From Subtercola boreus (GTDB lineage: Bacteria; Actinomycetota; Actinomycetes; Actinomycetales; Microbacteriaceae), in contig NZ_NBXA01000026.1 in NCBI RefSeq assembly GCF_003399625.1, positions 248,001 through 312,000 of the forward strand: a stretch of DNA of 64,000 bases, read 5' to 3'. Both the position numbers and the translations under genes were made by a program. Below, piece by piece: positions 14,983 through 30,280 of the stretch; the first letter of the stretch is position 1; each line of letters begins with the position of its first letter. The notes beneath the pieces were generated by a model. That model ran no database searches. It saw only the letters and a program-made list of their open reading frames with translations, and was not told the origin of the DNA.

Positions 14983-15001
14983 GCGCCCTCCTCGGCACGC
15001 T

Positions 15002-15281: not shown

Positions 15282-15965
15282 CGCCAGCACCGCCGCGACC
15301 GTGCGCGGGTCGGCCAGCACGCGGAAGTGGCCGCCCGTGTCGAGCCGCACGTTCTCGGCTCCGGCGAGTGCGCTGCCCTCGGGGATGTGCGGGTCGAAGA
15401 CGCCGAACACAGAGACGATCCGCGCGTTCGCACTGAGGTCCCGGCCGAGGGCGGAGAGTCCGGCATCCGTCGCCCGGAACGCGCGGAGCGACCGCAACGG
15501 CAGGAACCGTGCGTAGCGGGATCCCCCGAACGGCGCCGCCACCGCGACCATCCCGTCGATGCGGGAGGCCGTCGACGGCTGCAACATGAGGCGCTTGCCG
15601 ACCAGCCCGCCCTTGCTGTGCGCCACGATCACCACCCCGCGGAGGTCGCGCGGGAGAAGGTAGTCGGCGACGATCCGTGCGGCCGCGTCGAGCGGTACCC
15701 GGTTGTTCTGCAGCGCCGTCACCACGTGCACCGGATGCCCGGCCGAGTGCAGCGCCTCGATCGTCGGCCGGAGGAACTGCCACGTCTCGAAGATGCCCGG
15801 AATCACGAGAACGGGTCGCGCGCTGCCGGTGAGGTACTGGCGCGGGTCGGCCCGCGAGATCGCAGCCCGCGCCTGCCACATCACCGCGTAGAGGTAGTCG
15901 AGCGCCCACCAGCGCGCCTCGGCAAGCACCCGCCCGCCCCGCGAGCCCCAGATGCGGCCGATCAC
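15255..15965 (-). CDS. Alpha/beta hydrolase, lipase-like
   Basis: The 236-residue protein looks like a lipase/PGAP1-type hydrolase: PVLVIPGIFETWQFL (oxyanion strand), VVIVAHSKGGLVGKRL with Ser in AHSKGG as nucleophile, and a C-terminal TGGHFRVLADP giving the likely His. The start is the GTG at 15965, preceded by a strong GAGGAGGA ribosome-binding site and overlapping the upstream hydrolase stop. The pair of hydrolases is probably one unit acting on esters or lipids; the substrate is unknown. Confidence 0.82.
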   Translation of the reverse strand: MIGRIWGSRGGRVLAEARWWALDYLYAVMWQARAAISRADPRQYLTGSARPVLVIPGIFETWQFLRPTIEALHSAGHPVHVVTALQNNRVPLDAAARIVADYLLPRDLRGVVIVAHSKGGLVGKRLMLQPSTASRIDGMVAVAAPFGGSRYARFLPLRSLRAFRATDAGLSALGRDLSANARIVSVFGVFDPHIPEGSALAGAENVRLDTGGHFRVLADPRTVAAVLARAAAPAVR

Positions 15966-16912
15966 CGGGATTCCTCCTCGGCAGGATGCGCACCCTCCAC
16001 ACCCGCGGCGCCCGCCGCGGTCGCGGCAGCGGCCACACGCGATGCACCCTCCGCTGTCGCCGCGGTCGCCGAACCGTCCGCAGCCTGCGCACCCGCCGCA
16101 GTCGCCACATCGGCCGCGGCCGGAATGCCCGCCCCGCCCCGCGACGCCCCCGCCCCGGGCGCCGTCGCCCGCACCAGGCCCAGGATCTGCGCCGCCACAC
16201 GGCGCGGCGCCGTGAGATGCACGACGTGGCGCTGCCCGCGCACTTCGACGAGCCGGGTACCCGGAACCGACCCCGCCACGGCGGCGCACCACTCGTGCCG
16301 GGCGATGGGATCATCCGTTCCGCGCACCACCAGCACCGGAACCCGCACCCCCGAGAGCCGCTCCCGCAGCGGGTAGGCGAGCATCGGCGACGTCTCCCGA
16401 AGGAACCACCGGAGGCCCGCCCGCGCGGTGTCGGCGAGGGCAATGCGCTTGACGAACAACGGCTCCCCGAGGCTGTCGCGCGCCAGAGCGGCGGCCTGTC
16501 GCAGCAGGGTGTCGCGAGACGGGTCGACGACCGGTGCGATGAGTACGAGGTGGGAGACGAGCTCCGGACGCTGCAGCGCCAACTCGGTCACGATCTGGGC
16601 ACCCATCGAGTGCCCGATCAGCACGGCATCCGCCAGGTGCAACGCGTCGAACACCCGTCCGATCATGCTCGCGTAGGCTTCGATGCTGAGCGGATGCCCG
16701 GGGGTTTGCATCCCGCCGAAGCCGGGCAGGTCGAGCGAGAGCGACTCCCCCGCCAGCGCGAGTTCGTCCTGCAGCCTTGTGCTGTACCGGTGCGAGGAGC
16801 CGATACCGTGCACGATGACGAACACCGGGCGGCTCATCCGCCCCTCGAGGCTGCTCTGCACCACCCGGAACTGCAGCCCACCGACGCTGAGCAGACGACC
16901 CGCTGCGATCAC
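15962..16912 (-). CDS. Alpha/beta hydrolase
   Basis: The 316-residue enzyme has a complete triad framework: HGIGSSHRYS (oxyanion loop), DLPGFGG, GHSMGAQIV with Ser nucleophile, VVRGTDDPIARH carrying the Asp, and RGQRHVVHL with the His. Residues 250-316 are an Ala-rich low-complexity tail outside the fold. The start is GTG 16912, 3 bp after the stop of the small acidic repeat protein, so all three genes (16916-17197, this one, and the next hydrolase) form one operon. Confidence 0.88.
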   Translation of the reverse strand: MIAAGRLLSVGGLQFRVVQSSLEGRMSRPVFVIVHGIGSSHRYSTRLQDELALAGESLSLDLPGFGGMQTPGHPLSIEAYASMIGRVFDALHLADAVLIGHSMGAQIVTELALQRPELVSHLVLIAPVVDPSRDTLLRQAAALARDSLGEPLFVKRIALADTARAGLRWFLRETSPMLAYPLRERLSGVRVPVLVVRGTDDPIARHEWCAAVAGSVPGTRLVEVRGQRHVVHLTAPRRVAAQILGLVRATAPGAGASRGGAGIPAAADVATAAGAQAADGSATAATAEGASRVAAAATAAGAAGVEGAHPAEEESR

Positions 16913-16915
16913 AGG

Positions 16916-17197
16916 TCAGCCGCCCGGGCGGTAGGGGGCGTCGTCGCGTACGTCGATGCGCTTCGTGTGCGGTGCCACCTCGGTGACGTCGATGCGCGGT
17001 ACCGCGTCGTGCTCGTCGGCCTTCGGCGCTGTCAGGAGTTGTTCGCGGCGCTCTGCGGCGAAGTCGGCATCGTCTGCGGCGAAGTCGGCATCGTCAGCGG
17101 CAGCGTTCTCGGCGTCTGTCGGGTTCTCGGCGTCTGTCGGGTTCTCGGCGTCTGTCGGGTTCTCGGCGTCTGTCGGATTCTCAGTGTCTGCGGGCAC
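16916..17197 (-). CDS. Small acidic repeat protein
   Basis: The 93 residues are very acidic. After a short start come four to five ENPTDA repeats, encoded by an 18-bp DNA repeat (17105-17176 and a decayed copy), then two DDADFAA repeats. The last 40 residues are not repetitive and end in KRIDVRDDAPYRPGG, which looks like the conserved part. The GTG start sits close behind a TAGCGT element and may be leaderless. It is the first gene of the hydrolase operon. No function can be assigned. Confidence 0.6.
   Translation of the reverse strand: MPADTENPTDAENPTDAENPTDAENPTDAENAAADDADFAADDADFAAERREQLLTAPKADEHDAVPRIDVTEVAPHTKRIDVRDDAPYRPGG
17105..17176. repeat. 18-bp coding tandem repeat, 4 copies
   Basis: The unit GTTCTCGGCGTCTGTCGG is repeated exactly four times, followed by a decayed fifth copy. 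The period keeps frame and encodes the ENPTDA repeats of the acidic protein on the minus strand. Confidence 0.9.
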
Positions 17198-17302
17198 GCA
17201 CCAACGCTAACCCGTGGAACGATTTCGCTGAGGGGGTTGCGCCTCGCGGGGCGGGCGTTCGTGAGGGCGCGATCCTCAGTCGTCTCGCCCCCTGCGGAGT
17301 CC

Positions 17303-17623
17303 CTACGAGTCCCCGCCCACAGCCGGCTCCCCTACGAACGTGTGCGCCTCGCCGGCGAGCTCCGGCCAGAGCTGCTGGTCGTCGACACGCACCCAGTCGC
17401 GGGCCGGGCTGCCGTCGGCGGCGTGCGCCCGGGCGATGCCGCGCTCCCGCAGGTCGGCGCCACGCGCGGCGGGCAGCTCGACGATGAGGTCGTCGCCGTC
17501 GAGGAACGCAAAGACCGTGCCGTGCACCGTGAGACCGTCGCCGGTCACGGCCACCCCCTCCTCATCGCGCATCAGAAGAGCGAGGTTCTCGTAGCTCTCG
17601 GTTGCCGCAACGGAACTGACCAT
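17303..17623 (-). CDS. Conserved hypothetical protein
   Basis: This 106-residue protein has an N-terminal helix pair (SYENLALLMRDE), strands (VTGDGLTVHGTVFAFLDGDDLIVELP), then RGADLRERGIA and a WVRVDD segment. The layout recalls the TfoX N-terminal or YjbR-like fold of small soluble proteins, but the similarity is general. I chose ATG 17623 because a GGGAGG site lies about 7 bp upstream. It is monocistronic, between the GntR gene and the acidic-protein operon. Confidence 0.65.
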   Translation of the reverse strand: MVSSVAATESYENLALLMRDEEGVAVTGDGLTVHGTVFAFLDGDDLIVELPAARGADLRERGIARAHAADGSPARDWVRVDDQQLWPELAGEAHTFVGEPAVGGDS

Positions 17624-17685: not shown

Positions 17686-17745
17686 AGAGCAGAACGGTCC
17701 AGAGCAGAACGGTCTGGAGCAGAACGGTCTAGAGCAGAACCGTCG
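17686..17745. repeat. 15-bp tandem repeat across the gntR stop codon
   Basis: Four copies of AGAGCAGAACGGTCC-like units run from 17686 to 17745. The fourth covers the last codons and the stop of the GntR gene, and the other three lie downstream. The stop-bearing 3' end has been amplified, as at 15210. Confidence 0.85.
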
Positions 17746-18448
17746 CCACCGGGAAGGTCACGCTGTCGGCGCGGTAGTACGAGAACGCGTACTCCTGCGG
17801 CAGGCCTCGCCCGTCGACCAGCACCTGTTCCCGCACCAGTACCGGCGAGCCGGTCGGGATGCCCAGCATCTTCGCCGTCGCCGCCTCGCAGGCGGTCGCG
17901 TCGATCACCGAGCGGATCTCCTTCAGCGGCGATCCGTACACGAATTCGAACGCCTCCGCGAGGCTCGGGAAGTGTTCCCAGGTGGCTGGCTGCTCGAACT
18001 CCCGTCGGAAGTAGGCGATGCGAACCCCGAACGGATCCCCGTCGTTGTAGAAGCAGTGCTCGACGAGGCCGACGTACTCCTCGTCGGTCTGGAGGTTCTC
18101 GGCGATCGTCGCGGTGGAGTGCACCGTGCGGTAGTCGGTGCGGATGACCGAGAACCGGTTCGACGACTTCCACGGCAGGATGTCGTCGACCGGGAGCTGC
18201 ATCACCGCGGCCGTGATCTTCGTGCCCGCCCGTCGCTGGCGGCTCACCCGGCCCTCGGCGGCCAGAAGCTGGAGGGCCTCCCGCACCGCGGTGCGGGTGA
18301 TGCCGAGCGAGCGGATGAGGGTGTCCTCCACCAGCTTCTCGTCGGCCACGATGTCACCCGAGCGGATCAGAGCCTTGATCTGGTCGTAGGCTCGCCTGGT
18401 CTGGTTGCTCGAGGCCGCGGTGCCCACAGGGGGTCGGGCGTCTGGCAT
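17729..18448 (-). CDS. GntR-family regulator with UTRA domain
   Basis: Residues 20-85 form the winged helix (RRAYDQIKALIRSGDI, then LGITRTAVREALQLLAAEGRV), and the rest is a UTRA-type ligand domain that ends in the strand pair VLVREQVLVDGRGLPQEYAF. ATG 18448 has a GGGAGG site close upstream; longer starts lack one. UTRA domains bind small metabolites and release DNA. The gene is the last of the minus-strand run of transporter and monooxygenase genes, 104 bp after the RutA-like gene, so it is the best candidate regulator of that operon. Confidence 0.88.
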   Translation of the reverse strand: MPDARPPVGTAASSNQTRRAYDQIKALIRSGDIVADEKLVEDTLIRSLGITRTAVREALQLLAAEGRVSRQRRAGTKITAAVMQLPVDDILPWKSSNRFSVIRTDYRTVHSTATIAENLQTDEEYVGLVEHCFYNDGDPFGVRIAYFRREFEQPATWEHFPSLAEAFEFVYGSPLKEIRSVIDATACEAATAKMLGIPTGSPVLVREQVLVDGRGLPQEYAFSYYRADSVTFPVATVLL

Positions 18449-18552
18449 GTACCCTCCCGACGATGAGACTGCCTGTGACGAATTCTGGGTCTGAGGGTAC
18501 CAATCTGTCGTTTCGAACATGTGACCGCGACCTGACAATGCGGCGGGCCCGC

Positions 18553-19644
18553 TCACGTCGTCGTCATGAGCGGCACGACCTTCTCGGCGAACCGCACGAC
18601 GTCGACCTCGTAGTCCGCGAAGGTGAGGGCGGCCAGCGTCACGCCGGCCTCGGTGTCGAGGGCGTCGAGGTAGGCCGCGATGCGCGCGTATGAACCGACG
18701 ATGTGTGGGGAGTACCAACAGGAACCCGAGAGATAGGTCGCCCGCTCCGGGTGTTCGAACACGATCTCGGGCACATCCTCCGTGCGGGAATCGTGCTGCT
18801 GGGCGGCAGCGGTTCCCGAGCGGTCGTTGCTGGCGGCGGCGAGCATGCCCGCGGCGGCCCCCAGATCGACGCCCGCCATGTAGTGCCGGGCCTGGACGAT
18901 GGCCTCCTCATCGGTCTCGGCCATGATGATGCCGAGCAGCACCGCGCTCTCGCACGTGCGACCGTTCAGGTCGAGCCGCTCCAGGAGCGCATCCCGGGCG
19001 ACCTTCAGCACCTCCTGCGGGCCGAGGATGAAGTTCACGTCGGCGTGGGCCGCGGCCACGTCGAGGCTCGCCGCCGACTGGCCGGGCACGACGACCGTGA
19101 TCGGGTGCGCCGGTTTCGGCTGCACGATGCAGTCGTCGAGGTCGAAGAACCGGCCGTGGTGGGTGACCCGCCCGGTGTCCCAGAGCTTGCGCATCACCTC
19201 CACGAATTCGCCGCTGTAGACGTAGCGGTCGCTGTAGTACTCGTCGCTCGGCCAGAGCCCCATCTGCTCGTACTCGAAACGGTTCCAGCCGGCCACGATG
19301 TTGACCCCGAACCGACCGTTCGACGCGTCGTCGAGCGTGGAGACGGTGCGGGCGATCATGGCGGGGTTCGCCGCGGGCACCCCCACCGACGCCCAGAGCT
19401 TGACGGTCGACGTCGCCTCGACGAGGGCGGCCATCAGCGCGGTCGACTCGACGGCGTGGTTCCAGAAGTCGGTCTCGCCGCCGAATCCACGATATTTCAC
19501 CATCGACAGCACGAAGTCGTAGCCGTGGGTCTCCGCATCGACGGTGATCTGCCGGTTCAGCGCATAGGTCGGCATGTACTGCGGCGAGTTCACCGAATAG
19601 ATGTACCCATTGTTCGTGGTGGGGAGGAACACTCCGCATTTCAT
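18553..19644 (-). CDS. RutA-like flavin-dependent monooxygenase
   Basis: The 363 residues follow the pyrimidine oxygenase RutA closely in order of motifs: GVFLPTTNNG, PQYMPTYALN, SMVKYRGFGG, FWNHAVES, GRFGVNIVAGW, YEQMGLWPSDEYY and VGSYARIA. RutA uses FMNH2 and O2 to open the uracil ring. No other rut gene (rutB-F) is nearby, so uracil may not be the substrate. It closes a run of luciferase-like monooxygenases. A separate flavin reductase would be needed and none is visible in the cluster. Confidence 0.85.
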   Translation of the reverse strand: MKCGVFLPTTNNGYIYSVNSPQYMPTYALNRQITVDAETHGYDFVLSMVKYRGFGGETDFWNHAVESTALMAALVEATSTVKLWASVGVPAANPAMIARTVSTLDDASNGRFGVNIVAGWNRFEYEQMGLWPSDEYYSDRYVYSGEFVEVMRKLWDTGRVTHHGRFFDLDDCIVQPKPAHPITVVVPGQSAASLDVAAAHADVNFILGPQEVLKVARDALLERLDLNGRTCESAVLLGIIMAETDEEAIVQARHYMAGVDLGAAAGMLAAASNDRSGTAAAQQHDSRTEDVPEIVFEHPERATYLSGSCWYSPHIVGSYARIAAYLDALDTEAGVTLAALTFADYEVDVVRFAEKVVPLMTTT

Positions 19645-19666
19645 GTGGCGCTCGATTCTGTCGGGT

Positions 19667-19722
19667 GGATGTCGCGGAGTGGATGTCGCGGGCCGGATGT
19701 CGCGGGCCGGATGTCGCGGGCC
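19667..19722. repeat. 14-bp tandem repeat between two monooxygenase genes
   Basis: Four copies of GGATGTCGCGGGCC, the first a variant, fill most of the 82-bp gap between the RutA-like gene and the preceding gene on the minus strand. They may disturb or set spacing for the RutA-like gene's translation, since its other neighbours overlap directly. Confidence 0.85.
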
Positions 19723-19726
19723 GGGC

Positions 19727-21061
19727 TCAGTGCTCGAGCAGGTTCTCGCGGAGCGTCGTCCCGGAATACCCGTCGCGGATCAGCCCCCGCCGCCGGAGCG
19801 CCGGCGCCAACCCGTCGGCGACCTCCGCCATGTTCCGCCTGGTCGTCGGCAGGTAGAACAGGAACCCGTCGCCGCCCACCTCGTCCATGATCTCGCCCAT
19901 CCTGGCCGCGACCGTGTCGGGGCTGCCGACCAGGCCGAGGTCGGTGATCTGGTACGACGTCGCCACGACTTCCCTGAGCGACAGATCGGCCGAGTTCTGG
20001 AAGATCGCCGCCACCGAGCTGTTCTCGCCGTTCTGCCGGCTGAAGTCGATGTCCCGGATGAGCGTATCGGGGTCGATCGCCCCGAAGTCGATGCGGCCAC
20101 CGCTGGTGTACGACATGTTCCAGAGGTTGTACTCGATCGAGGCGTCGCTGAGACGAGCGGCCGCCATGGCCTTCTTCTTCTCCTGGGCCTCGGCATCCGT
20201 CTCGGCGATCACCGGTGTGACGAGGAAGAGGAACTTCACCGCATCCGGGTCCCGACCATAGACGGCGACCCGGCGACGCATGTCGAGCCGGTACTCCTTC
20301 ATCTCCTCGACGCTCTTGCTGAGCGACATCATCGTGTCGTCGTAGCGGGCGGCGAGGTCGCGCCCGGCCTCGGATCCCCCGGCCGACGCGATCGGCGGCC
20401 GGCCCTGCGGCCCCGGGATCGTGTTCAGCGGACCGCGGGAGGAGAAGTACTTTCCGACGAAGTCGATCGGCTGCACCTTCGTGTGGTCGGCGTAGACCGC
20501 GTTCCAAACGTCGGCGAGCACCGCGCCGGGCTTCCACGAACCCTGCAACTGCTGTACGACATCCACCCATTCCTGAGCCATCAGGTAGCGCTCGTCGTGC
20601 TCGAAATGCTCGGCATACCCGTAGTTCTGCGCGACCCTGTCGGTGACACTGGTCACGACGTTCATCCCGACCCGCCCCTCGGTGAGGTGGTCGAGAGTTG
20701 CGAAGAGCCGGGCGGCGAGGTAGGGCGGGTACTGGATGACCGAGGCCGTCGGGATGATCCCGATGTGCTTGGTGCGCTGGGTCATCAGCGGCACCAACGG
20801 CATCGGGTCGTTCTTCGGGGCCATGAAGCCGCGCCGGAGCGAGGTCTCCGCGGTGCCCTGGTAGCTGTCCTCCACCATGGCCGTGTCTTCGATCAGGATG
20901 TAGTCGAAGCCCGCGCGCTCCATCGAGGTCGCGAGATCCACGTAGATGTCGGGCTTCATCCAGTCGGTGACGTTCGATCCGGTCCAGAGACCGTCACCGC
21001 CCTTCTCGCTCCAGGGCTGGATGCCGAAGCCTGCGCCGAGAAACCAGCCGAGGTGGATCAT
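19727..21061 (-). CDS. NtaA/SnaA/DszA-type flavin monooxygenase
   Basis: The 444-residue protein belongs to the bacterial luciferase-like superfamily, NtaA/SnaA/DszA branch. Motifs: HLGWFLGAGFG at the N-terminus, AGFDYILIEDT, GRVGMNVVTSVTD, the YFSSRGPLN and QGRPPIASAGGSEAGR region, and a C-terminal GGDGFLFYLP. These enzymes use reduced FMN from a partner reductase to oxygenate N- or S-containing or heterocyclic compounds. ATG 21061 overlaps the stop of the preceding gene. It is the second of three full-length members by position. Confidence 0.9.
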   Translation of the reverse strand: MIHLGWFLGAGFGIQPWSEKGGDGLWTGSNVTDWMKPDIYVDLATSMERAGFDYILIEDTAMVEDSYQGTAETSLRRGFMAPKNDPMPLVPLMTQRTKHIGIIPTASVIQYPPYLAARLFATLDHLTEGRVGMNVVTSVTDRVAQNYGYAEHFEHDERYLMAQEWVDVVQQLQGSWKPGAVLADVWNAVYADHTKVQPIDFVGKYFSSRGPLNTIPGPQGRPPIASAGGSEAGRDLAARYDDTMMSLSKSVEEMKEYRLDMRRRVAVYGRDPDAVKFLFLVTPVIAETDAEAQEKKKAMAAARLSDASIEYNLWNMSYTSGGRIDFGAIDPDTLIRDIDFSRQNGENSSVAAIFQNSADLSLREVVATSYQITDLGLVGSPDTVAARMGEIMDEVGGDGFLFYLPTTRRNMAEVADGLAPALRRRGLIRDGYSGTTLRENLLEH

Positions 21062-22365
21062 GTCGTGCTCCTGAGTGTGTCGTTCGTGAGTCGGTCGTGG
21101 AAGGTACCGGGGCCGTAGCCGCTCTGGGCGAGCCCCCGGCGTTGCAGTTCGGGTACGAGGCCGTCGAGCACGTCGTCGAGGTAGTGCCGGCTGATCAGCC
21201 CGCCGCCCCCGTGGAAGAGCAGGAAGCCGTCGCCGCCGACCTGGTCGATGGCCGCCTCCATCTCATCGGCGACGCTCTCCGGCGTACCGACGAGCCGGAG
21301 CGAGGTGGACTCCCCCTTGCCCGACATCGCCTCACGCAGTGATGACCCGCGGGTCATCTTCTTCATGCCCTCGAGGATGCTCTGGGCTCCGTTCGTCGTG
21401 GCGTCTTCGGGAATCGGCGCATCCAGGTCGTACTCGGCGAAGTCGATCTCGGCGATGTTCGACAGCTGCACCAGGCGCCGCAAAAAGTTGTCGCCCTCGG
21501 CCGAGTACATGCGCGCCTCCTTGTCCTCCGCCTCGGCGACGCTCTCCCCGAGGATCGGCGTCACCATGTACAGCACCTTCGTCGCATCCGGGTCGGTGCC
21601 GGCCGCCTCCGCGCGCCTCCGGATGCCGTCGCGGTAGGCCTTCATCGCATCGATTCCGCTCGGCACCGACACGATCAGGTCGGCCCATTTCGCCGCGAAG
21701 TCCATGCCCGACGACGAGCCGCCGGCCTGGCAGAGCACGGGACGGCGCTGAACCAGCGGGGTGGTGCCCGGGGCATCCAGCGCGAAGGAGCGGCCCTCGA
21801 AGACCGCCCGGCCCCGGGCATCCGGAACCGCGCCCGCCCGCCAGAGAGACGAGACCGCCCGCAGGTACTCATCGGCCCGGGCGTAGCGTTCGTCGTGTTC
21901 CCAGAGCGTGTCGAGGCCGATGTTGCGGGCGGCGAGATCCTCGAACGAGGTCACCACATTCCAGCCCGCACGCCCGTCGGAGAGCTGGTCGAGAGTCGCC
22001 TGCAGCTGGGCGATGCGGTGCGGCGGGTAGAGACTCGTCGACATCGTGGTGACGATGCCGAGCGAGGTGGTGGCCGCGGCGATCGCGGCGGCCAGGGGCA
22101 GAGGATCGTGTTTCGGCGCCTTCACTGTCGCCTTGAATTCGGCCTCCATCGTGCCGCCGAAGTTCTCGGGCACCACGCTCGAATCCTCGAGCATGATCAG
22201 GTCGATGGATGATCTCTCGAGCGCCCGCGCCATGTCGATGTAGAACTGGCCGTCGGTCCAGCCGGTCACGTTCGGGCCGGCCCAGGGCCGGTTCCAGGCG
22301 GTCGGCATGTAGTTGACGAACCAGCCGAGGATCATCCGCCTGCGGGCGGTGCTGTCGAGGCTCAT
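21058..22365 (-). CDS. NtaA/SnaA/DszA-type flavin monooxygenase
   Basis: This 435-residue enzyme has the same layout as its neighbours: ILGWFVNYMP, DLIMLEDSSVV, GRAGWNVVTSFEDLAARNIG, RRPVLCQAGGSSSG, and C-terminal GGDGFLLFHGGGG. It is only moderately alike in sequence to the other two full-length copies, so the copies have diverged to separate substrates or steps. It overlaps both flanking genes by 4 bp. Confidence 0.9.
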   Translation of the reverse strand: MSLDSTARRRMILGWFVNYMPTAWNRPWAGPNVTGWTDGQFYIDMARALERSSIDLIMLEDSSVVPENFGGTMEAEFKATVKAPKHDPLPLAAAIAAATTSLGIVTTMSTSLYPPHRIAQLQATLDQLSDGRAGWNVVTSFEDLAARNIGLDTLWEHDERYARADEYLRAVSSLWRAGAVPDARGRAVFEGRSFALDAPGTTPLVQRRPVLCQAGGSSSGMDFAAKWADLIVSVPSGIDAMKAYRDGIRRRAEAAGTDPDATKVLYMVTPILGESVAEAEDKEARMYSAEGDNFLRRLVQLSNIAEIDFAEYDLDAPIPEDATTNGAQSILEGMKKMTRGSSLREAMSGKGESTSLRLVGTPESVADEMEAAIDQVGGDGFLLFHGGGGLISRHYLDDVLDGLVPELQRRGLAQSGYGPGTFHDRLTNDTLRSTT

Positions 22366-23228
22366 GCGTTCTCTCCCGGTGTCCAGGCGAAGCGCGCCTC
22401 GGGAAGTCCGAGACGGTCGCGGAGCAGCGTGGCGGGGTCACGCGCCTCCACCAGCGCCGGCAGCACACCGTGGATCAGCTGGCCGGCGAGCGCGCCGTCG
22501 GCCACTCCCGTGACGAGATACCCGTCGGCGGCCGTGGGCGGCGGCGCGAGGGCAGCCTCTCCGCGCACCTCCAGCAGCACTCGGCACCCCGCCTCCTGTG
22601 CCCCGTCGACGTCAGCCTCGGTGGCGGCGATCACCACGTCGGCCACGGCTGCCGCGCCGCTGCCTGAGGCCGCGAACACGACGGGCCGGCCCTGCGGCGA
22701 GCGCGGCATGTTGAGCGGGCCGCGCACCGAGAAGAAGTCACCGCGGTGGTTCGTGACGTGCACCTTCGCCGGATCGACGTACTGGCCGCGCGCGACGTCG
22801 GCGACGAGGGCCCCGGGTTCCCACGAGTTCCAGAGCGCGAACACCGCGGCCAGGTAGTCGTCGGCCGCCTGTTCGAGGGCGAGATCATCGGTGACCCCCG
22901 ACGCGTTCCAGCGGTCGGTGTCGTCGGTCGAGCTGAACGTCGGCGCTGCGGTGTCGACGAACCAGCCCGCACGGCCCGAGGTGAGCGCGTCGAGCGTTCC
23001 GAGCGCCCGCGCGGTGTGGAACGGCGGCTGCAGCCACGGCATCAGAGTCGGCACGAGGCCGATCGACGGTGCGCGCCTGCTGGCCGCACCCGCGATGAGG
23101 ATGGGGTCGGGCGACGCGAGCGACTCGCAGGGCAGCAGTGCGGCATCCGCGCCGGCCGCGTCGAGCGCCGCGATGAGGTCGAGCTGGGCGCGCACGGGCG
23201 CCTGTTCGAGGCGCCAGGCGACGATCAC
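22362..23228 (-). CDS. Shortened luciferase-like monooxygenase homologue
   Basis: At 288 residues it is about 150 shorter than its three operon relatives. It keeps the barrel start (VAWRLEQAP), SGRAGWFVDTAAP, HRGDFFSVRGPLNMPRSPQGRP and a short end (DPATLLRDRLGLPEA), but lacks the long C-terminal insertion and GGDGF motif. The GTG start at 23228 overlaps the hydrolase stop. There is no frameshift; the gene is intact. It may be an inactive partner subunit or a minimal enzyme. Confidence 0.72.
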   Translation of the reverse strand: MIVAWRLEQAPVRAQLDLIAALDAAGADAALLPCESLASPDPILIAGAASRRAPSIGLVPTLMPWLQPPFHTARALGTLDALTSGRAGWFVDTAAPTFSSTDDTDRWNASGVTDDLALEQAADDYLAAVFALWNSWEPGALVADVARGQYVDPAKVHVTNHRGDFFSVRGPLNMPRSPQGRPVVFAASGSGAAAVADVVIAATEADVDGAQEAGCRVLLEVRGEAALAPPPTAADGYLVTGVADGALAGQLIHGVLPALVEARDPATLLRDRLGLPEARFAWTPGENA

Positions 23229-24037
23229 CGCGGCACCTGCTTGAGAAAGTCGAGGTAGGTGCCCGCGACCAGCTGTGGCTGCTGGTCGAGCACGTAGGCG
23301 CCCGCCGCCAGCTCGTGGTACCGGATGCCGGGGCGGGCGGCGAGCGTGGCGCCGGCGTAGGGGTGAAGCACGTCGGCCGTGCCGCTGAACAGCACCGCCG
23401 GGCATCCGGTTGCGGCCAGCTGCGAACCCAGGTCGGCGCCGAAGACGGCGAGGTACGCCTCGTGCCAGCGCTCCCCCGCGCCGAGCTTGTCCACCACCTC
23501 ACGCTGGCGGAGGGCGAGGCCCGGCGGGTAGGCGTCCGGGTCGCCGTCGATGGCCGCGACCTGCTGCCAGGCGATGCCGAGGTGGGAGCCCTCATCGTCG
23601 ACCGTCATGCCGTGCACGGAGGCGTGCCACCGCGCGGCCTCATCCTGGGAGAGCACGAGGCCGCCGATCATCCCGAGGCTCAGCACCCGGCCGGGGTCGG
23701 CTGCGGCCACCGCGATGGCGATGGCCGCGCCGGTGTGGTGCCCGAGGAGGTGGAATTCCCGGGCATCCACTGCCGAGGCCACGTCGAGCACGACGTCAGC
23801 CCACTCCCCGAAGCTGTAGGGCGCGGCGGGCGTGTACGAACTCCCGAAGCCCGGGGTGTCGAGAGCGACGAAACGGTAGGTCGCGAGCGGCGAGCCACCC
23901 AGTGCCTCCACGAACGACTCGAACATCGCCGACGACGCGGCCGTCTGGTGCAGCAGCAGCACGACCTCCTCCCCCGTGCCGGCCGTACGCACGTGCACCT
24001 GTCCGGCGCTCGTGTCGACGTACCCGCGGCGCATCAT
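23225..24037 (-). CDS. Alpha/beta hydrolase-fold protein with His at the nucleophile elbow
   Basis: The 270-residue protein has an alpha/beta-hydrolase layout: LLLHQTAASSAMF, ALDTPGFGSS, then LLGHHTGAAIAIA where the elbow G-x-S-x-G reads GHHTG (99-103), so His101 replaces Ser. FSGTADVLHP supplies the usual acid position, but the C-terminal His is not evident (HELAAGAYVLDQQP). It may be a cofactor-independent lyase or a non-hydrolytic member. ATG 24037 overlaps the stop of the upstream monooxygenase by one base. It lies inside the monooxygenase operon. Confidence 0.8.
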   Translation of the reverse strand: MMRRGYVDTSAGQVHVRTAGTGEEVVLLLHQTAASSAMFESFVEALGGSPLATYRFVALDTPGFGSSYTPAAPYSFGEWADVVLDVASAVDAREFHLLGHHTGAAIAIAVAAADPGRVLSLGMIGGLVLSQDEAARWHASVHGMTVDDEGSHLGIAWQQVAAIDGDPDAYPPGLALRQREVVDKLGAGERWHEAYLAVFGADLGSQLAATGCPAVLFSGTADVLHPYAGATLAARPGIRYHELAAGAYVLDQQPQLVAGTYLDFLKQVPR

Positions 24038-25344
24038 CAGAAGGAGTGCAGGTTCTCGAGCAGGGTCTTGTGCGAGTAGTCGTTCCGCATGAGACCGCGT
24101 CTCTGCAGCGCCGGAGCGACCCCGTCGGTCATCTCGGAGATGTACTGGCGGCTGATCGGCTGGCCGTAGATGAGAAACCCGTCGCCGCCCACCTCCTGCA
24201 TGAACTCGTCCATCTGGCTGGCGATCGCATCGGGCGTGCCGACCATCTCGGTCGTCTGCACGCGCATCCCACTGAACCCCTCGCGGATGGTCTTGCCACC
24301 GAGCTGCTTCCGCCAGATCTCGAACTGGCTCTGGTGACCGTTCGTCGAGAGGTCGTCGGGGATGGGCTGGTCGGGGTCGAACTGCGAGAAGTCGATCTCG
24401 GTGAGCGCGCCGAAGTGAGCCATCTGCACCTCGAAGTTCTGCTGCTTGCGGGCGTACCATGCCTCGTTCTTCGCCTGCGCGTCAGCCATCGTCTCGCCGA
24501 CGATCGGGTAGACCACCGAGAAGACCTTGATGTCGTCGGGGTTCCGGCCGAACGACTCGGCCCGGCGACGGATGTCGGCGCGGTACGCCTTCGCACCGGC
24601 GGCCTCATTCGGGATGGTCAGGATCACATCGGCGTACTGCGCGGCGAAGTCCCGGCCGCGGGGCGATCCACCGGCCTGGCAGATGACCGGGCCGCCGTTG
24701 GGGCCGGCTGGAAGGTTCAGCGGGCCGCGGGTCTTGTAGTACGTGCCCTCGTAGTTCACCGGGTTCACCTTCGTGAAGTCGGTGTAGTAGCCGCTCTCGG
24801 CGTCGGCGAGGATGGCGCCCTCCTCCCACGAGCCCCAGAGCGCCTTGGCCGCGAGCATGAACTCCTCGGCCATGTCGTAGCGGAGGTCGTGCTCGGGCAG
24901 CTTGTCCATCCCGTAGTTCTTCGCGGCGAGGTCTTCGCTCGACGTCACGACGTTCCAGCCGACGCGGCCGCCCGAGAGATTGTTGATCGTCGCGAACTGC
25001 CGGGCCAGCTGGTACGGGTGGTAGAACGTCGTCGAGGCGGTAGCGATGATGCCGATGTGCTGGGTGGCCTTCGCGAGCATCGCGGCCGTCGCCACCGGAT
25101 CCATCTTCGGCGCGTAGCGGGCGTGCTTCAGCTCGATCTCCGAGGTGCCCTGATAGATGTCCGACACCATCAGCGAGTCCTCGAGCATGATGAAGTCGAA
25201 ACCGGCGCGCTCGAGGTTTCGCACCATGTCGATGTGGAACGAGCCGTCGAACCAGGTCTTCGGGTCGTTGCCCGGGTAGGGCGACTTCCATTCGGGAGCG
25301 GTGAGGTTGGCGAACCAGCCGAGACGGAACGGGTCAGCAGACAT
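24037..25344 (-). CDS. NtaA/SnaA/DszA-type flavin monooxygenase
   Basis: This 435-residue member is the first monooxygenase after the transporter. Motifs: RLGWFANLTAPEW, FDFIMLEDSLMVSD, GRVGWNVVTSSEDLAAKNYG, GTYYKTRGPLNLPAGPNGGPV, and C-terminal GGDGFLIYGQP. ATG 25344 has an AAGGAAG ribosome-binding site. It follows the ATPase gene by 73 bp, the largest gap inside the transporter-monooxygenase run, so an extra promoter there is possible. Confidence 0.9.
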   Translation of the reverse strand: MSADPFRLGWFANLTAPEWKSPYPGNDPKTWFDGSFHIDMVRNLERAGFDFIMLEDSLMVSDIYQGTSEIELKHARYAPKMDPVATAAMLAKATQHIGIIATASTTFYHPYQLARQFATINNLSGGRVGWNVVTSSEDLAAKNYGMDKLPEHDLRYDMAEEFMLAAKALWGSWEEGAILADAESGYYTDFTKVNPVNYEGTYYKTRGPLNLPAGPNGGPVICQAGGSPRGRDFAAQYADVILTIPNEAAGAKAYRADIRRRAESFGRNPDDIKVFSVVYPIVGETMADAQAKNEAWYARKQQNFEVQMAHFGALTEIDFSQFDPDQPIPDDLSTNGHQSQFEIWRKQLGGKTIREGFSGMRVQTTEMVGTPDAIASQMDEFMQEVGGDGFLIYGQPISRQYISEMTDGVAPALQRRGLMRNDYSHKTLLENLHSF

Positions 25345-25417
25345 AGCGGTACTTCCTTAGGGTGTGGTGCGGGTGTTCTTTCGGTCAGGTTCGAAGGGCC
25401 GGATGCGCGGCCCGTGC

Positions 25418-26953
25418 TCACGCGGCCGCGGAGATCTCCGACGGGGCGGCCTCGCAGGCCTCCAGGAGCGCATGCTCGGTGAGGCCGCCGCTGCCCCGGG
25501 TGAGCTCGGCGATGACCTCACCGTGGTGGAGCACGATCACGCGGTGGCAGATCGCCGCGAGCTGTTCGTGGTCGCCCGAGAACACCACCACCGCGCTGCC
25601 GGCGGCTGCGGCATCCATCGCGTCGCCCAGCAACGCCTTCGCGGCGCCCGGATCGACGCCCTGGGTGGGCTCGTCGAGCAGCAGCACGCCGGGGTTCAGC
25701 TGCAACCACTTCGCGAAGACGATCTTCTGCTGGTTGCCGCCGCTGAATGCCGCGAGCGCGTAGTCGGGGCGGTTCGGGGTGACCTGCACGTTGCCCATCA
25801 GCTCGGTGGCGCGCTTCCGGAGTGCCGGGCCGCGGATGCCGAAGAGGGCTGAGAACGACCCGATCACCGGAAGAGTGACGTTCTCCTCGGCGGTGCCCGC
25901 GATCCAGACCCCGTCGCGGAGCCGGTTGCCGGGCACCAGGGCCACACCGGCCGCGATCGCCGCCGACGGGGTGCTGAACTCGGCTCGGCTGCCGTCGATG
26001 GAATAGCCACCGGCGGTCGCCTTCTGTTCACCGCACAGCAGGAACGGCAGTTCCTCCTGGCCCATGCCGGCGAGTCCCGTGACGCCGACCACTTCGCCGC
26101 CGTGGGCTGTGAAGCTCACATTCGATACCCGGTCGCCGCTCAGGCCCTCGACGCTCAGCCGGGTGGGGCCGCCCGCAAAGGCCGGGGGCACGGGGAAGAA
26201 GTCGTCCATCCGGCGGCCGAGCATATGGGCGACCAGCTCGGCGCGACTGGTGTCGGAGATCGCCACGTGCACGACATCCCGGCCGGCGCGCATCACGGTG
26301 GCGCGGTCGCAGACGTCCATCACCTCGGAGAGGCGATGGCTCACGAAGATGACACCGGCACCGAGGTCGGCGACCCGGCGCATCAGCACCAGCAGCCGGT
26401 CGGCCTCGGGCTTCGAGAGCGCGGCGGTCGGTTCATCCAGAATGAAGAGCTGCTTGTCGCTCTCGGTGTCCATCAGGCGCATCGCCCGGGCCACGGCGAG
26501 CAGCGCGCGCTCGGCGGGGCTGAGGGTGGAGACCTCGGCGTCGAGGTCGAAGCGCACGCCCAGCCGCTCCATCAGCTCCTCGTAGATCGCCTTCTCACGT
26601 CTCACGTTCACCGGGGCGAGCAACCGGGTGCCGTAGCGGGCATTGATGCCGAGGTTCTCGAGCACGGTCATCGATTCGACCAGGCCGATGTCCTGGTGGA
26701 TGACCGCGATACCGCGGGTGTGCGGGTCGATCGTCGGCATCGCGAGCGGTTCACCGAACACGTCGACACTCCCGCTGTCGGGTACGACCACTCCGGTCAG
26801 GCTCTTCACGAGCGTGCTCTTGCCGCAGCCGTTCTGGCCGAGCAGGGCGTGCACCTCACCGGCCCGCACCGTGAGCGAGACGTCTTCGAGGGCGACCGAG
26901 CCACCGTACGACTTCGCGAGATTCCGCACCTCGAGGGCGAAAGGGGCGCTCAC
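25418..26953 (-). CDS. Ribose-type ABC importer ATPase
   Basis: The 511-residue protein has two ABC units, as in RbsA. The first has Walker A GQNGCGKST (39-47), a weak signature (LSPAERALLAVA) and Walker B LFILDEPTAAL. The second has a degenerate Walker A (GLAGMGQEE) but an intact signature FSGGNQQK and Walker B VLLLDEPTQGVD. This asymmetry is normal in the family. The GTG start at 26953 overlaps the permease stop. Together with the permease and binding protein it forms a complete importer feeding the monooxygenases. Confidence 0.94.
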   Translation of the reverse strand: MSAPFALEVRNLAKSYGGSVALEDVSLTVRAGEVHALLGQNGCGKSTLVKSLTGVVVPDSGSVDVFGEPLAMPTIDPHTRGIAVIHQDIGLVESMTVLENLGINARYGTRLLAPVNVRREKAIYEELMERLGVRFDLDAEVSTLSPAERALLAVARAMRLMDTESDKQLFILDEPTAALSKPEADRLLVLMRRVADLGAGVIFVSHRLSEVMDVCDRATVMRAGRDVVHVAISDTSRAELVAHMLGRRMDDFFPVPPAFAGGPTRLSVEGLSGDRVSNVSFTAHGGEVVGVTGLAGMGQEELPFLLCGEQKATAGGYSIDGSRAEFSTPSAAIAAGVALVPGNRLRDGVWIAGTAEENVTLPVIGSFSALFGIRGPALRKRATELMGNVQVTPNRPDYALAAFSGGNQQKIVFAKWLQLNPGVLLLDEPTQGVDPGAAKALLGDAMDAAAAGSAVVVFSGDHEQLAAICHRVIVLHHGEVIAELTRGSGGLTEHALLEACEAAPSEISAAA

Positions 26954-27981
26954 TTCGCCTGACCTCCGCCGCGCCGGCTGCCCGCGATCTTCGCGGCGGT
27001 CACCGCGACCATCAGCGCCACGCCGTAGAAGACGTTCGAGACCCAGGTCTGTGCTCCGAGGAGCTGCAGGGCGGTGATGCCCACGGTCAGCAGGTAGAGC
27101 GCTGCGACTGTGCCGAAGGCGTTGAACCGGCCGACCGAGATGGCCGTTGCCCCCAGGAAGGCTGCGGCGAACGGCTGCAGCATGTACTGGCCGCCCACAC
27201 TCGGGTCGACCGCGCCGAAGTAGCCGATGAAGCAGATGCCGATGAACGACGCCAGGAGTCCGGAGACGATGTACGCGCCGGCACGGATGCGGTTGACCGG
27301 CACTCCCGAGAGACGGGCCGCGTTGCGATTGCCGCCGATGAAGAGCGTGTAACGGCCGAGCGGTGTGCGCTGGTAGACGTACCAGAGCACGATCACGAGG
27401 ATCCAGGCGTACCAGGTGATCAGCGGGATGCCGAGCAGCTGCGAGCGGGCGAAGTCCACGAAGCCGTCGGGGATGCCCGAGATGATCCGGCTGTTCGTGA
27501 TGAGGTACGACAGGCCGCTGAGTGCGGTGAACGAACCGAGCGTCGCGACGAACGAGTCCACGCCGATCCTGACCACCAGCAGCGCGTTGATGAGGCCGAC
27601 GATCACGCCGAGGGCGAGCCCGGCGAGGATGGCCAGCGGTGCCGGGACGCCGAGCTTCACCAGCTGCGCCACGATGGCGCCCGTGGCGACCATGGTCTGG
27701 GCGATCGAGAGGTCGAAGTCGCCGAGGCGCAGGATGACCGTGGCGGTGAGCCCGAGAAGGAGCACGAGCGACTGCGCGTTCACCATCGTGGTGAACAGTG
27801 ACGCCGTGCGGAACTGCGGGAAGATGATGATGCAGGCAATCACCAGCACGGCGAGTCCCCCCACGAGGGCCCAGCGTTCGGTGAAGCCGGCCCACGAGAA
27901 CTGCGACTTCGGCGGTGCGGTGAAGTCGTGTTTCAGCGGCGGCGGGTTCGTGGCTGTCGGCGTGGCGGTTGAAGCGCTCAT
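26950..27981 (-). CDS. Ribose-type ABC importer permease
   Basis: This 343-residue inner-membrane protein has 8-10 hydrophobic segments and the RbsC-type signature: GDFDLSIAQTMVATGAIVAQL, LINALLVVRIGVDSFVATLG, and GRYTLFIGGNRNAARLSGVPVNRIRAGAYIVSG (the EAA-like loop). ATG 27981 was chosen over a longer low-complexity start. Its stop overlaps the ATPase start. One permease gene suggests a homodimer. Confidence 0.94.
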   Translation of the reverse strand: MSASTATPTATNPPPLKHDFTAPPKSQFSWAGFTERWALVGGLAVLVIACIIIFPQFRTASLFTTMVNAQSLVLLLGLTATVILRLGDFDLSIAQTMVATGAIVAQLVKLGVPAPLAILAGLALGVIVGLINALLVVRIGVDSFVATLGSFTALSGLSYLITNSRIISGIPDGFVDFARSQLLGIPLITWYAWILVIVLWYVYQRTPLGRYTLFIGGNRNAARLSGVPVNRIRAGAYIVSGLLASFIGICFIGYFGAVDPSVGGQYMLQPFAAAFLGATAISVGRFNAFGTVAALYLLTVGITALQLLGAQTWVSNVFYGVALMVAVTAAKIAGSRRGGGQAK

Positions 27982-28100
27982 GCGTGCGGCTCTCTCCTGG
28001 TGATGGTTGGGGTGCGAACGACGGGAGGGTGCGGGGGGGGTGTGGTGTGGCCGGGCGACCTGTTCGGGATGATCGCATCGCCCGGCCACAGCGGTGCTGC

Positions 28101-29243
28101 CTAGCTCTTCCAGGCGGTGGTGAACGCGTCGGCGTACCCGTCGTACTCAGGGAAGGTCGATGAGGCCGAACCGTCACCGACATTGGTCGAGTCGATCATC
28201 CGGGTCGGGATCACGTAGTCGAGCAGGGCCGAGCCGGTCATCTCGCGGGCGATGTCGTCGAAGGCCGCCCAGCCGATCCAGGCGGTGGGAGGCATTGCCG
28301 TCGTCATGGCCTGGTCGCCGGCCACGATCGCGTCGAGGTTGACCTGGAGGCCGTCACGACTCAGCACTTTGGCCTTGGAGTTGGCCGCGGCGAGCACGGG
28401 TGCCACGAACGGGGTCGCGCTGTCCCACACGGGGTAGACGTAGTTCACGTTCTGGTCCTTCTGCAGGGCCGTTCCGAGCTGGCTGCCGATGTCGGTGGAG
28501 ACGTTCGCCACGTCGACGTTCAGGCCCGTGAACGTGCAGTCCTCGGGGCAGTACTCGTCGAACACGCTCTTGGCACCGTCGTACATCTTCTGCCACACGC
28601 CGACCGAGCTGGAGTAGAGCGAGACGATGTCGGCCGTGCATCCGGAGTCCACCAGGGCCCACTTGGCGGCGTTCTCGCCGTCCTTCGTGAAGTCGGAGGT
28701 GAAGTTGTCGTACATGCCCGCGGGAACGGGGTCGCTCGGGTCGCTGTTCAGGGTGTTCTGGATGGGGATGCCCGCAGCGGTCGCCTCCTGCAGGGCCGAG
28801 CTCACCACGGCGGGATCGATACCGACGAGGATGATGCCGCCGGCGTTCTGGGCGATCGCCTGCTGGATGCCCTCGTTGAAGCGGTTCGCGGCGCCCTGGC
28901 CGTCGTAGGTGACGATCTTCACGCCCGCCGCGTCGGCAGCAGCCTGCACACCCGTGGCCATGTCGGTCGAGAACTGGTTCATGCTGACGGTGATGAACCA
29001 CACGGTCTTGCCGGAGAGCTTTGCCAGGTCGAGCGGTGCGGTGGGTGCGACCAGCGCGGTGACGGCGGTCGAGGCCTCGACATCGGCCTTGACGGCGGCG
29101 ACGCAGGCCGTCTGCGCTGAGGTGAGCTCCGCTGTCGCGGTGCTCGCCGCAGAGGAGGATCCAGTGGCTGAGGTGCACGCAGCAAGCGAGACCGACACCC
29201 CCACGACGAGCACGAGGCTCGCGGCCAGTTTCGGGAATTTCAT
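28101..29243 (-). CDS. ABC importer substrate-binding lipoprotein
   Basis: The 380-residue protein has a lipoprotein signal (MKFPKL, hydrophobic core, LAAC lipobox at about residues 20-23), then a type-1 periplasmic-binding fold: KLSGKTVWFITVSMNQF, NRFNEGIQQAIAQNAGGIILVGIDP, and a C-terminal half with WIGWAAFDDIAREMTG. RbsB-like proteins bind sugars, nucleosides and related compounds. A group of cysteines (GCTAD, YCPEDCTF) may form a disulfide. ATG 29243 has a GGAG site. It is the first gene of the catabolic operon and sets its substrate range. Confidence 0.93.
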   Translation of the reverse strand: MKFPKLAASLVLVVGVSVSLAACTSATGSSSAASTATAELTSAQTACVAAVKADVEASTAVTALVAPTAPLDLAKLSGKTVWFITVSMNQFSTDMATGVQAAADAAGVKIVTYDGQGAANRFNEGIQQAIAQNAGGIILVGIDPAVVSSALQEATAAGIPIQNTLNSDPSDPVPAGMYDNFTSDFTKDGENAAKWALVDSGCTADIVSLYSSSVGVWQKMYDGAKSVFDEYCPEDCTFTGLNVDVANVSTDIGSQLGTALQKDQNVNYVYPVWDSATPFVAPVLAAANSKAKVLSRDGLQVNLDAIVAGDQAMTTAMPPTAWIGWAAFDDIAREMTGSALLDYVIPTRMIDSTNVGDGSASSTFPEYDGYADAFTTAWKS

Positions 29244-29490
29244 TCGGAACTCCAAGAGAGTAAGAGGTGCTCGGGTAGTTGTTCCAGTGAAGTGGGGCCC
29301 GGTTTCCCCGCAGTATCTACCCGATTAAGTGCCTATTACGCAGCGACCCCCGTGTTTCCAACAGCGCACTCCGAGAAGAAGGGCCGGTCAGGGGGCGGTT
29401 TCGGCGGCGTTGTTCGTACCGTGCTGGCGGGTCGGCCGAATAACGCGGCTCACCGTGGGGAAAACGCGGTGGGCGGCGTGCGCCGGAGAG
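29244..29490 (-). promoter_or_regulatory. Leader and probable promoter of the transporter-monooxygenase operon
   Basis: This 247-bp gap precedes the binding-protein gene and holds no gene. A TAGATACT element at 29312-29319 (minus strand) could act as a -10 box, which would give a leader of about 60 nt. No clear GntR inverted repeat was found by eye. The left part also receives the end of the response-regulator gene, whose terminator is not obvious. Confidence 0.35.
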
Positions 29491-30162
29491 TCAGGATTCG
29501 AAGCGCTCGAGCCGCTGCCGGTCATCCGGCCCGATCAGCCCACTGCGGATCGCCTCCTCGCGGAGTGCCACTTTCGTGCCGACGTCGATTCCCGCCAGCC
29601 GGTACTTCCGGCGGATCCGTTTGAGGTGCGACTTCGCGGTCTCCTCGCTGATGTGCAGCAGCGTCGCGATCCGTTTCGCCGAGTCTCCCGAACTGTAGAG
29701 GGCCATCACCCGCCGTTCCTGCGCCGACAGCCGCGACGCGTCGTCGCCCGCCTCGAGGTGCGGGACCAACCGGGCAGACACGAAGGTCGCACCGGAGTGG
29801 GCAGCATGCACGGCCAGCACGATGTTCTCGGCCTGCTCGCTCTTCACGAGGTAGCCGAGGGCGCCGGCGGCGAGCGCTTCACGCACGACAGCCGGCTTGG
29901 AGTAGGTGCTCATCACCACCGTCCTGACGCCGACGGTGCAGAGGGCCCGGAGTTTGACCGAGATCGGCAGGTTGTCGCGCAGGTCGAGGTCGAGCAGTAC
30001 GACATCCACCGGGAACTGCGGATGCGCCAGCAGATCGGGCCAGCTGCTCACCGCGGCGACGAGCTCGATGTCGGTGGTCGCGGCCCTGATCCACTCGCCG
30101 AGGGCGGTCAGGAGCATCCGGTGGTCATCGACGATCGCGAGTCGGATTCCCGTTGCTGCCAT
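29491..30162 (-). CDS. LuxR/NarL-type response regulator
   Basis: The 223-residue protein has a receiver domain with acidic pair DD (12-13), phospho-acceptor D58 (VVLLDLDLRD), the Thr/Ser of VVMST and a Lys in LVKSE. A C-terminal LuxR helix-turn-helix follows (ALYSSGDSAKRIATLLHISEETAKSHLKRI). ATG 30162 was chosen because the receiver begins there. It is divergent from the histidine kinase at 30281, 118 bp away, so the pair is probably a two-component system sharing a promoter region. Confidence 0.9.
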   Translation of the reverse strand: MAATGIRLAIVDDHRMLLTALGEWIRAATTDIELVAAVSSWPDLLAHPQFPVDVVLLDLDLRDNLPISVKLRALCTVGVRTVVMSTYSKPAVVREALAAGALGYLVKSEQAENIVLAVHAAHSGATFVSARLVPHLEAGDDASRLSAQERRVMALYSSGDSAKRIATLLHISEETAKSHLKRIRRKYRLAGIDVGTKVALREEAIRSGLIGPDDRQRLERFES

Positions 30163-30280
30163 ACAGGCATCCTGCCAGATCGGCGGGAGCCATCCTGTCG
30201 GAACGACACCCGGAAGGGGGGCGCGGGCGGGCGACGACCGCCACCGTGCGCTCCGGGTTCCCCCGGAGTAGATTTCAGAG

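Follow-up and report, generated by a model that had tools for sequence, protein, structure and literature searches.

A ten-gene operon was analyzed on the minus strand (17729-29243) of a 64,000-nucleotide stretch of the Subtercola boreus genome (positions 248,001 to 312,000 of contig NZ_NBXA01000026.1), hereafter called the window. The genes in 5'->3' order are sbp, perm, atp, llmA, abh, short, llmC, llmD, rutA-like, and gntR. They encode a CUT2-type ABC importer, three NtaA-type luciferase-like monooxygenases (LLMs), a truncated LLM homologue (short), an odd alpha/beta hydrolase (abh), a RutA-family LLM, and a GntR/UTRA regulator. The gene set is a real, rare, and conserved operon, and it is catabolic by its make-up. 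The reading favored here, with about even confidence, is that this putatively horizontally spread operon serves the breakdown of an imported N-heterocycle, dependent on reduced flavin mononucleotide (FMNH2). Organosulfur scavenging is the main rival of this reading, and riboflavin breakdown is disfavored. The interest of the operon lies in its gene combination and in two unusual proteins, i.e., short and abh.

In the proposed mechanism, the CUT2 importer would take up a small N-heterocycle, most likely a pyrimidine-like compound or another cyclic amide. With FMNH2 and O2, the llmA, llmD, and llmC enzymes would work one after another through N5-peroxyflavin chemistry of the DszA/RutA kind, stripping substituents or cleaving ring bonds, and llmC would function as a heterodimer with short as a catalytically dead half-subunit. 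The rutA-like enzyme may open a ring at an amide-type bond, and abh may process the opened amide, enamide, or carbamate intermediate, though without a classical triad. The GntR/UTRA protein would detect the substrate or an intermediate. FMNH2 would be supplied by reductases encoded elsewhere or, in Rhodococcus sp. HM1, beside the cluster.

Monooxygenases, the truncated homologue, and the hydrolase

The LLM genes were assigned with the family cut-offs of TIGR03860 (NtaA/DmoA, 279.7 bits) and TIGR03612 (RutA, 498.3 bits). The llmA, llmC, and llmD proteins exceeded the TIGR03860 cut-off, and short fell below it (Table 1). The three enzymes are in this respect members of the DszA/DmoA/CmoJ/NtaA group, whereas here three members and a degenerate fourth are placed in one run with a CUT2 importer and a RutA-like enzyme. 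The best solved relatives were 5tlc, named dibenzothiophene desulfurization enzyme A, for llmA, 7e36_B for llmC, and 6ak1, named dimethyl-sulfide monooxygenase, for llmD.

RutA sets O2 at flavin N5 via L65, T105, N134, V136, and F224; of the substitutions tested at T105, N134, and V136, T105S keeps approximately 80% activity and all others inactivate the enzyme (PMC7662398). The residues aligned to these five positions are L, S, N, V, F in rutA-like, M, T, N, V, L in llmA, M, T, N, V, V in llmC, L, T, N, V, M in llmD, and L, T, F, D, I in short. The N5-peroxyflavin pocket, taken as T or S at 105, N at 134, and V at 136, is present in rutA-like, llmA, llmC, and llmD and absent from short.

The fifth LLM was considered as a RutA and rejected. 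Its TIGR03612 score (331 bits in the genome search) is under the cut-off, so it is a RutA-family protein and not RutA. Its identity to E. coli RutA is 41%, whereas nine actinobacterial RutA sequences share 58-65% identity with the E. coli enzyme. In an 18-row tree, the four rutA-like proteins formed one set on a long stem with 100/100 support; the deeper forks of the RutA tree do not place this set relative to RutA. The tree omits x_L017 and x_L020 (too short), x_L019 and the VKM Ac-2855 row of L074 (long branches), and x_L024 to x_L027. Among the alignment columns that do not vary across ten RutA sequences, all four rutA-like proteins agree with RutA at 90 and depart from it at 36, two of which are gaps. 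The rutA-like enzyme likely acts on a ring different from that of RutA.

Like the Rut pathway of E. coli, the operon holds a RutA-family enzyme with the N5-oxygen pocket, and in HM1 a genuine RutA, an isochorismatase-fold hydrolase, and a CN-hydrolase adjoin the cluster. Unlike the Rut pathway, the window run adds three NtaA-type enzymes and an ABC importer. None of rutB-F was found above cut-off among the ten proteins, and abh showed just a weak RutD match (32.5 bits, cut-off 238.5). A second cluster with a RutA-family protein (36% identical to rutA-like, 271 bits for RutA) was observed in the same genome (L058, contig G000:C3, 5434-12847). An isochorismatase and an NtaA-type LLM are also encoded there, and an MFS protein and an NMT1-type importer were recognized by eye.

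The short gene product lacks the pocket Asn. The position of RutA Asn134 is Phe in short of all five clusters that were found, and the position of Val136 is D, V, D, D, and S across them. In the solved complex 7E36, the chain 7e36_A bears Val where the pocket Asn stands. This chain is presumably NtfO1, as R156 and Y163, the residues named for NtfO1, are present at those places in it. Short matched 7e36_A with a profile score of 103 bits, and the alignment with 7e36_A covers the longest stretch of short in both single-sequence and profile comparisons. The genes of short and llmC, related to 7e36_A and 7e36_B, respectively, overlap in five of five clusters. NtfO1/NtfO2 is a solved heterodimer, stmO1/stmO2 partly overlap and are both required in vivo, and NgnO1 alone or NgnO2 alone is inactive (PMC8027225). 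Short is like the small subunit of the StmO1-StmO2 and NtfO1-NtfO2 pairs in having lost the pocket Asn (Phe in short, Val in 7e36_A), and the pairs share an NtaA-type large subunit and overlapping genes, the overlap being stated for stmO1/stmO2. The NtfO1-NtfO2 pair differs in being biosynthetic, hydroxylating a polyketide-type intermediate (PMC8027225), whereas the setting of short/llmC looks catabolic and its complex is a predicted one. Short is probably a non-catalytic partner subunit, with llmC as its catalytic partner. The single-chain model of short had a pLDDT of 51.7 and was too poor to use.

The abh protein has neither the elbow Ser nor the catalytic His of a classical Ser-His-Asp hydrolase. 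Its nucleophile elbow is GHHTG in all five clusters. Among 12 aligned relatives, the five clusters included, the Ser position holds His in nine and Lys in three, and the classical His is missing at its usual place, judged by alignment and recall, in every one; in the Streptomyces and Shinella sequences, a His follows a few residues later. The predicted structure was of moderate quality (pLDDT 64.4, pTM 0.70). A Foldseek search with this model gave 1409 matches at E <= 0.001, of which the best 50 were various alpha/beta-hydrolase-fold proteins with TM of approximately 0.6, and pointed to no more specific family. At E <= 1e-12, abh had two profile matches, one of them 3kxp, the E-2AMS hydrolase of vitamin B6 breakdown. 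The E-2AMS hydrolase acts after flavin-dependent ring opening. The two proteins share the alpha/beta-hydrolase fold, but abh is without the Ser nucleophile and without the catalytic His at its usual place.

Outside the five clusters, LLM genes lie beside or within approximately 5 kb of abh relatives in 5 of 13 loci, i.e., genomes G007, G248, and G116, Streptomyces NBC_01643, and Novosphingobium SA1. Two further hits on plasmids, H4 and H5, are not part of this count. The link of abh with LLMs is thus recurrent and not general. In genome G089, a weak RutA-family match was found approximately 7 kb from the abh relative.

The sequence-only reading had named flavin or riboflavin breakdown as a candidate, which the analysis does not support. 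It could be argued that RcaE is likewise an LLM-class enzyme of actinobacterial catabolism, that the importer is ribose-type, and that the gene for RibBA beside the HM1 cluster is readable either way. However, among distinct solved sequences, riboflavin lyase (5w48) ranked only 9th for llmA, 11th for llmC, and 10th for llmD, scoring 189, 117, and 157 bits against 256, 194, and 215 bits for the respective best relatives. The known lumichrome pathway employs a P450, hydrolases, a thiamin-dependent decarboxylase, a xanthine oxidase, and a Rieske dioxygenase (PMC12746152). Of these enzyme types, the ten proteins include just a hydrolase-fold protein. The run is unlike RcaE and the Lum pathway in having no close RcaE relative and no P450, Rieske, or xanthine-oxidase gene, and the HM1 cluster adjoins a flavin-making gene. 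Breakdown of riboflavin, lumichrome, or another flavin is considered very improbable.

The importer and its RutA neighborhood

The importer is of the CUT2 type, with a Peripla_BP_4 binding protein, a BPD_transp_2 permease, and a tandem ATPase. A sugar identity was sought from NCBIfam equivalogs, and no cut-off was reached among the matches listed for sbp, perm, and atp. The best match of atp was AraG (340 bits, cut-off 689) among the 25 of 188 matches listed.

The HM1 cluster has an informative neighborhood. On one strand, it runs from a LacI-type gene, RutA, CN-hydrolase, amidase, MFS protein, isochorismatase-fold hydrolase, and CUT2 importer 1 through llmD, two GntR genes, CUT2 importer 2, llmA, abh, short, and llmC to an SsuE-like reductase, a PF01613 reductase, and RibBA. 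The LacI gene and the ATPase of importer 1 were named by eye. The RutA is genuine, i.e., above cut-off with 623 bits. The amidase matched best the AtzE family and the isochorismatase-fold hydrolase scored 42 bits for RutB, both under cut-off. RibBA and the two reductases would fit a high demand for FMNH2.

The module of CUT2 importer, RutA, CN-hydrolase, amidase, MFS protein, and isochorismatase recurs in three loci (L073, L075, and L076) besides the HM1 locus L069. Twelve actinobacterial loci with RutA above the family cut-off were collected as stretches of approximately 19 kb. In 10 of the 12, and in six of seven genus-level groups, the stretch holds a CUT2 permease, a CUT2 binding protein, and a CN-hydrolase. 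In 23 comparison loci, a CUT2 permease was found in two, and a binding protein and a CN-hydrolase in none. Fisher p values for the enrichment at RutA loci were 2e-5 (permease) and 4e-7 (binding protein), but they are only a guide. The loci are not independent, since several come from sister species, the cluster itself is part of L069, and the comparison loci had been retrieved for different purposes. Locus G512, a 5-kb contig with RutA under cut-off, was counted among the comparison loci, and the RutA of G568 was read with one in-frame TAG. Away from their clusters, the two VKM genomes each encode a RutA above cut-off, and so does G116.

These neighborhoods suggest that, in actinobacteria, pathways of the RutA type often draw on CUT2 importers. 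RutA itself acts on uracil and thymine (PMC7662398). The window binding protein is 26-29% identical to the two RutA-linked binding proteins that were compared. The window importer probably carries a heterocycle related to RutA substrates. The breakdown of an imported heterocycle, which the sequence-only reading had proposed, is retained in part. Import followed by FMNH2-dependent oxidation of an N-heterocycle agrees with the HM1 neighborhood. A nucleoside- or ribityl-type substrate is suggested only by the ribose-type importer, and such importers also adjoin RutA.

Several observations weigh against the N-heterocycle reading. CUT2 importers classically carry sugars. The RutA loci of G497 and G588 show no CUT2 importer, and the link of the cluster with RutA rests on one draft contig of HM1 (41 kb). 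In the genome search, the window genome and G679, a genome of the same genus, had no RutA above cut-off, so the RutA module is not universal. No rutA-like orthologue was found in HM1, where the sole whole-genome match at E <= 1e-30 is its 41% identical RutA. The 82-bp gap between llmD and rutA-like and the 104-bp gap between rutA-like and gntR could make rutA-like and gntR separate units. Since 7e36_A was not the top match of short (6th by single sequence, 5th by profile), the partnership of short and llmC stays at the level of a prediction. Finally, llmA and llmD have as their closest solved relatives enzymes named after C-S compounds.

The last point belongs to the organosulfur rival, in which the NtaA-type enzymes would cut C-S bonds of an imported thio-compound, as DszA and DmoA do, and free sulfite. 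In HM1, an NtaA-type LLM gene and Ssu-like importer genes, recognized by eye, are also placed further downstream of the cluster on the opposite strand (L061, 16887-20634). However, the importer of the operon is CUT2 and not of the Ssu type, the regulator is GntR/UTRA, and the RutA pyrimidine module adjoins the cluster in HM1. Similarity to TIGR03860 cannot separate C-S cleavage from C-N or ring cleavage. Organosulfur scavenging is judged unlikely.

A more specific form of the N-heterocycle reading is put forward tentatively, as a possibility that may well prove wrong. The operon could encode a new actinobacterial oxidative pathway for a modified pyrimidine-like heterocycle. CUT2 "sugar" systems would have turned into nucleobase importers, three NtaA-type N5-peroxyflavin oxygenases would work in series, one of them dimerized with a half-subunit whose oxygen pocket is dead, and the product would be cleaved by an alpha/beta-hydrolase-fold protein that has His or Lys at the position of the nucleophile Ser. 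If the operon works as proposed, flavin-N5 chemistry would extend from single enzymes such as RutA and DszA to a multi-step pathway, and CUT2 importers would be carriers of nucleobase-like compounds in actinobacteria. The operon would also define an alpha/beta-hydrolase subfamily without the classical triad and partly linked to LLMs.

Conservation and spread of the operon

Five clusters were found in all, i.e., in the window, in G679, in two other Microbacteriaceae (strains VKM Ac-2854 and VKM Ac-2855), and in Rhodococcus sp. HM1. All ten genes are together in four clusters and nine of the ten in all five. In HM1, llmD is placed upstream of the GntR genes and rutA-like is absent. Protein identities to the window are 63-92% in G679, 53-78% in the VKM strains, and 52-81% in HM1 (rutA-like not included). 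The cluster is rare. Within the genus, two of 12 genomes had a match to short at E <= 1e-40. Of 396 genomes sampled across the order, only the window's own had one. A scan of GTDB contigs with the abh alignment, which requires exact peptide patterns so that more diverged clusters may escape, gave four loci. Three of them were the VKM Ac-2855, VKM Ac-2854, and HM1 clusters, and the fourth, from Roseobacter, was a 30% identical hydrolase relative alone. In the open-licence literature, no paper was found on this cluster or on CUT2-RutA neighborhoods, and for the VKM strains only a genome announcement (PMC7498432).

The overlaps of perm/atp (4 bp) and short/llmC are kept in all five clusters. The ratio of nonsynonymous to synonymous substitution rates (dN/dS) over the ten genes is 0.06-0.27 between the window and G679 and 0.03-0.18 between VKM Ac-2854 and Ac-2855. 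All ten genes are under purifying selection. With the kept overlaps and low dN/dS, the operon is not a chance arrangement. The lowest value between the window and G679 is that of llmD (0.064). The highest values are those of short (0.26 and 0.15, respectively) and abh (0.27 and 0.18); short, though among the highest, is constrained and is thus not decaying. In the gene set used for dN/dS, llmC of G679 and gntR of VKM Ac-2854 began at non-start codons. The short/llmC overlap of G679 is 4 bp when the ATG of llmC is used.

An alternative is that the operon is a broad-range island for detoxification or nutrient scavenging, put together from LLM modules that are independent of each other and do not serve one pathway substrate. 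In its favor, G007, G248, and G116 contain LLM-LLM-abh modules that are accompanied by a different importer, and the 4.1-Mb window genome contains 26 PF00296 matches. This alternative is also judged unlikely, as all five clusters keep nine of the ten genes side by side and four of them keep the full set. The G007, G248, and G116 loci (L046, L047, and L049) are smaller relatives with two NtaA-type LLMs that are 54-57% and 44-46% identical to llmA. They also hold an oligopeptide-type importer (by eye), an abh relative with a GMKTG elbow, and a protein that by eye is flavin-reductase-like; the one scanned had no NCBIfam match. A further multi-LLM cluster was observed in VKM Ac-2855, approximately 100 kb from its operon (L074). 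It contains an NMT1-type binding protein, a RutA-family protein, an oligopeptide-type importer (by eye), and an adenosine-deaminase-family gene.

Approximately 8 kb of flank in G679 (4.6 kb left and 3.7 kb right) showed no match to the window flanking DNA (5001-17600 and 29301-42000) and none to any of 22 flank proteins, whereas the operon matches. The llmA proteins of a Microbacteriaceae member and Rhodococcus are 81% identical. The differing neighbors in two species of one genus and this high identity across the two groups suggest that the operon spread horizontally. The RutA of HM1 is 78-79% identical to RutA of G497 and G588 and 64-65% to RutA of Microbacteriaceae. Because its nearest relatives are those of G497 and G588, simple contamination from Microbacteriaceae is disfavored.

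Operon layout and regulation

The ten genes are listed in Table 1. The minus-strand run that the sequence-only reading described was recovered with the same places and families by NCBIfam and Pfam matches. The 1-4 bp junction overlaps that it reported were seen at five junctions, and the lack of a flavin reductase, a ribokinase, and RutB-F in the run agreed with the family matches of the ten proteins. Overlaps of 4 bp are found at perm/atp, abh/short, short/llmC, and llmC/llmD. The fifth, at llmA/abh, depends on the start of abh, i.e., a spacing of +2 bp, or -1 bp with the ATG at 24037. The sbp/perm and atp/llmA gaps are 119 bp and 73 bp.

Table 1. Genes of the operon and the conserved upstream block in the window
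Feature	Position	Strand	Description	Evidence
sbp	28101..29243	-	Lipoprotein-like CUT2 substrate-binding protein, 380 aa	PF13407 E 7.6e-26; orthologues 59-79% in 4 other clusters
perm	26950..27981	-	CUT2 permease, 343 aa	PF02653 E 2.2e-32; orthologues 73-88%
atp	25418..26953	-	Tandem ABC ATPase, 511 aa, GTG start	PF00005 in two stretches
llmA	24037..25344	-	NtaA/DszA-type FMNH2 monooxygenase, 435 aa	TIGR03860 412 bits, above cut-off
abh	23225..24034	-	Alpha/beta-hydrolase-fold protein, 269 aa (270 if ATG at 24037)	PF00561
short	22362..23228	-	Truncated NtaA-type homologue, 288 aa, GTG start	TIGR03860 142 bits, under cut-off
llmC	21058..22365	-	NtaA-type monooxygenase, 435 aa	TIGR03860 303 bits
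llmD	19727..21061	-	NtaA-type monooxygenase, 444 aa	TIGR03860 358 bits
rutA-like	18553..19644	-	RutA-family enzyme, 363 aa	TIGR03612 332 bits, cut-off 498.3
gntR	17729..18448	-	GntR/UTRA regulator, 239 aa, start uncertain	PF00392 and PF07702
Conserved block GCGTAATAGGCACTTAATCG	29322..29341	-	Candidate promoter/operator upstream of sbp	

From this spacing, a single transcript from sbp to llmD is plausible. In VKM Ac-2854 and Ac-2855, a second GntR gene separates llmD from rutA-like, with an overlap of 1 bp on the llmD side and of 4 bp on the rutA-like side; these overlaps favor joint transcription in the two clusters. The two PF01613 flavin reductases of the window genome are on other contigs; reductases of the PF03358 type were not searched for in the genome.

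Relatives of gntR (53-74% identical) were found in the other four clusters, placed upstream of sbp in VKM and HM1. An 18-bp block, GCGYAATAGGCRCTTAAT, is placed 98-137 bp before sbp in four clusters. A similar block is present in all four Microbacteriaceae clusters and was not found in HM1. It occurs once each in L045, L059, and L060 at up to four mismatches. The 20-bp form in Table 1 has a single site in the window at up to three mismatches, with a chance mean of 0.01; as the pattern was drawn from the same loci, this is no independent test. The block may be a promoter or operator. The HutC-type GntR operator pattern GTNTANAC was also searched and had no match in 16 stretches.

Methylcitrate-cycle-like genes, i.e., PrpC, PrpB, and PrpD, named by eye from their translations, are located at 37037-40625 of the window, approximately 8 kb from the operon.

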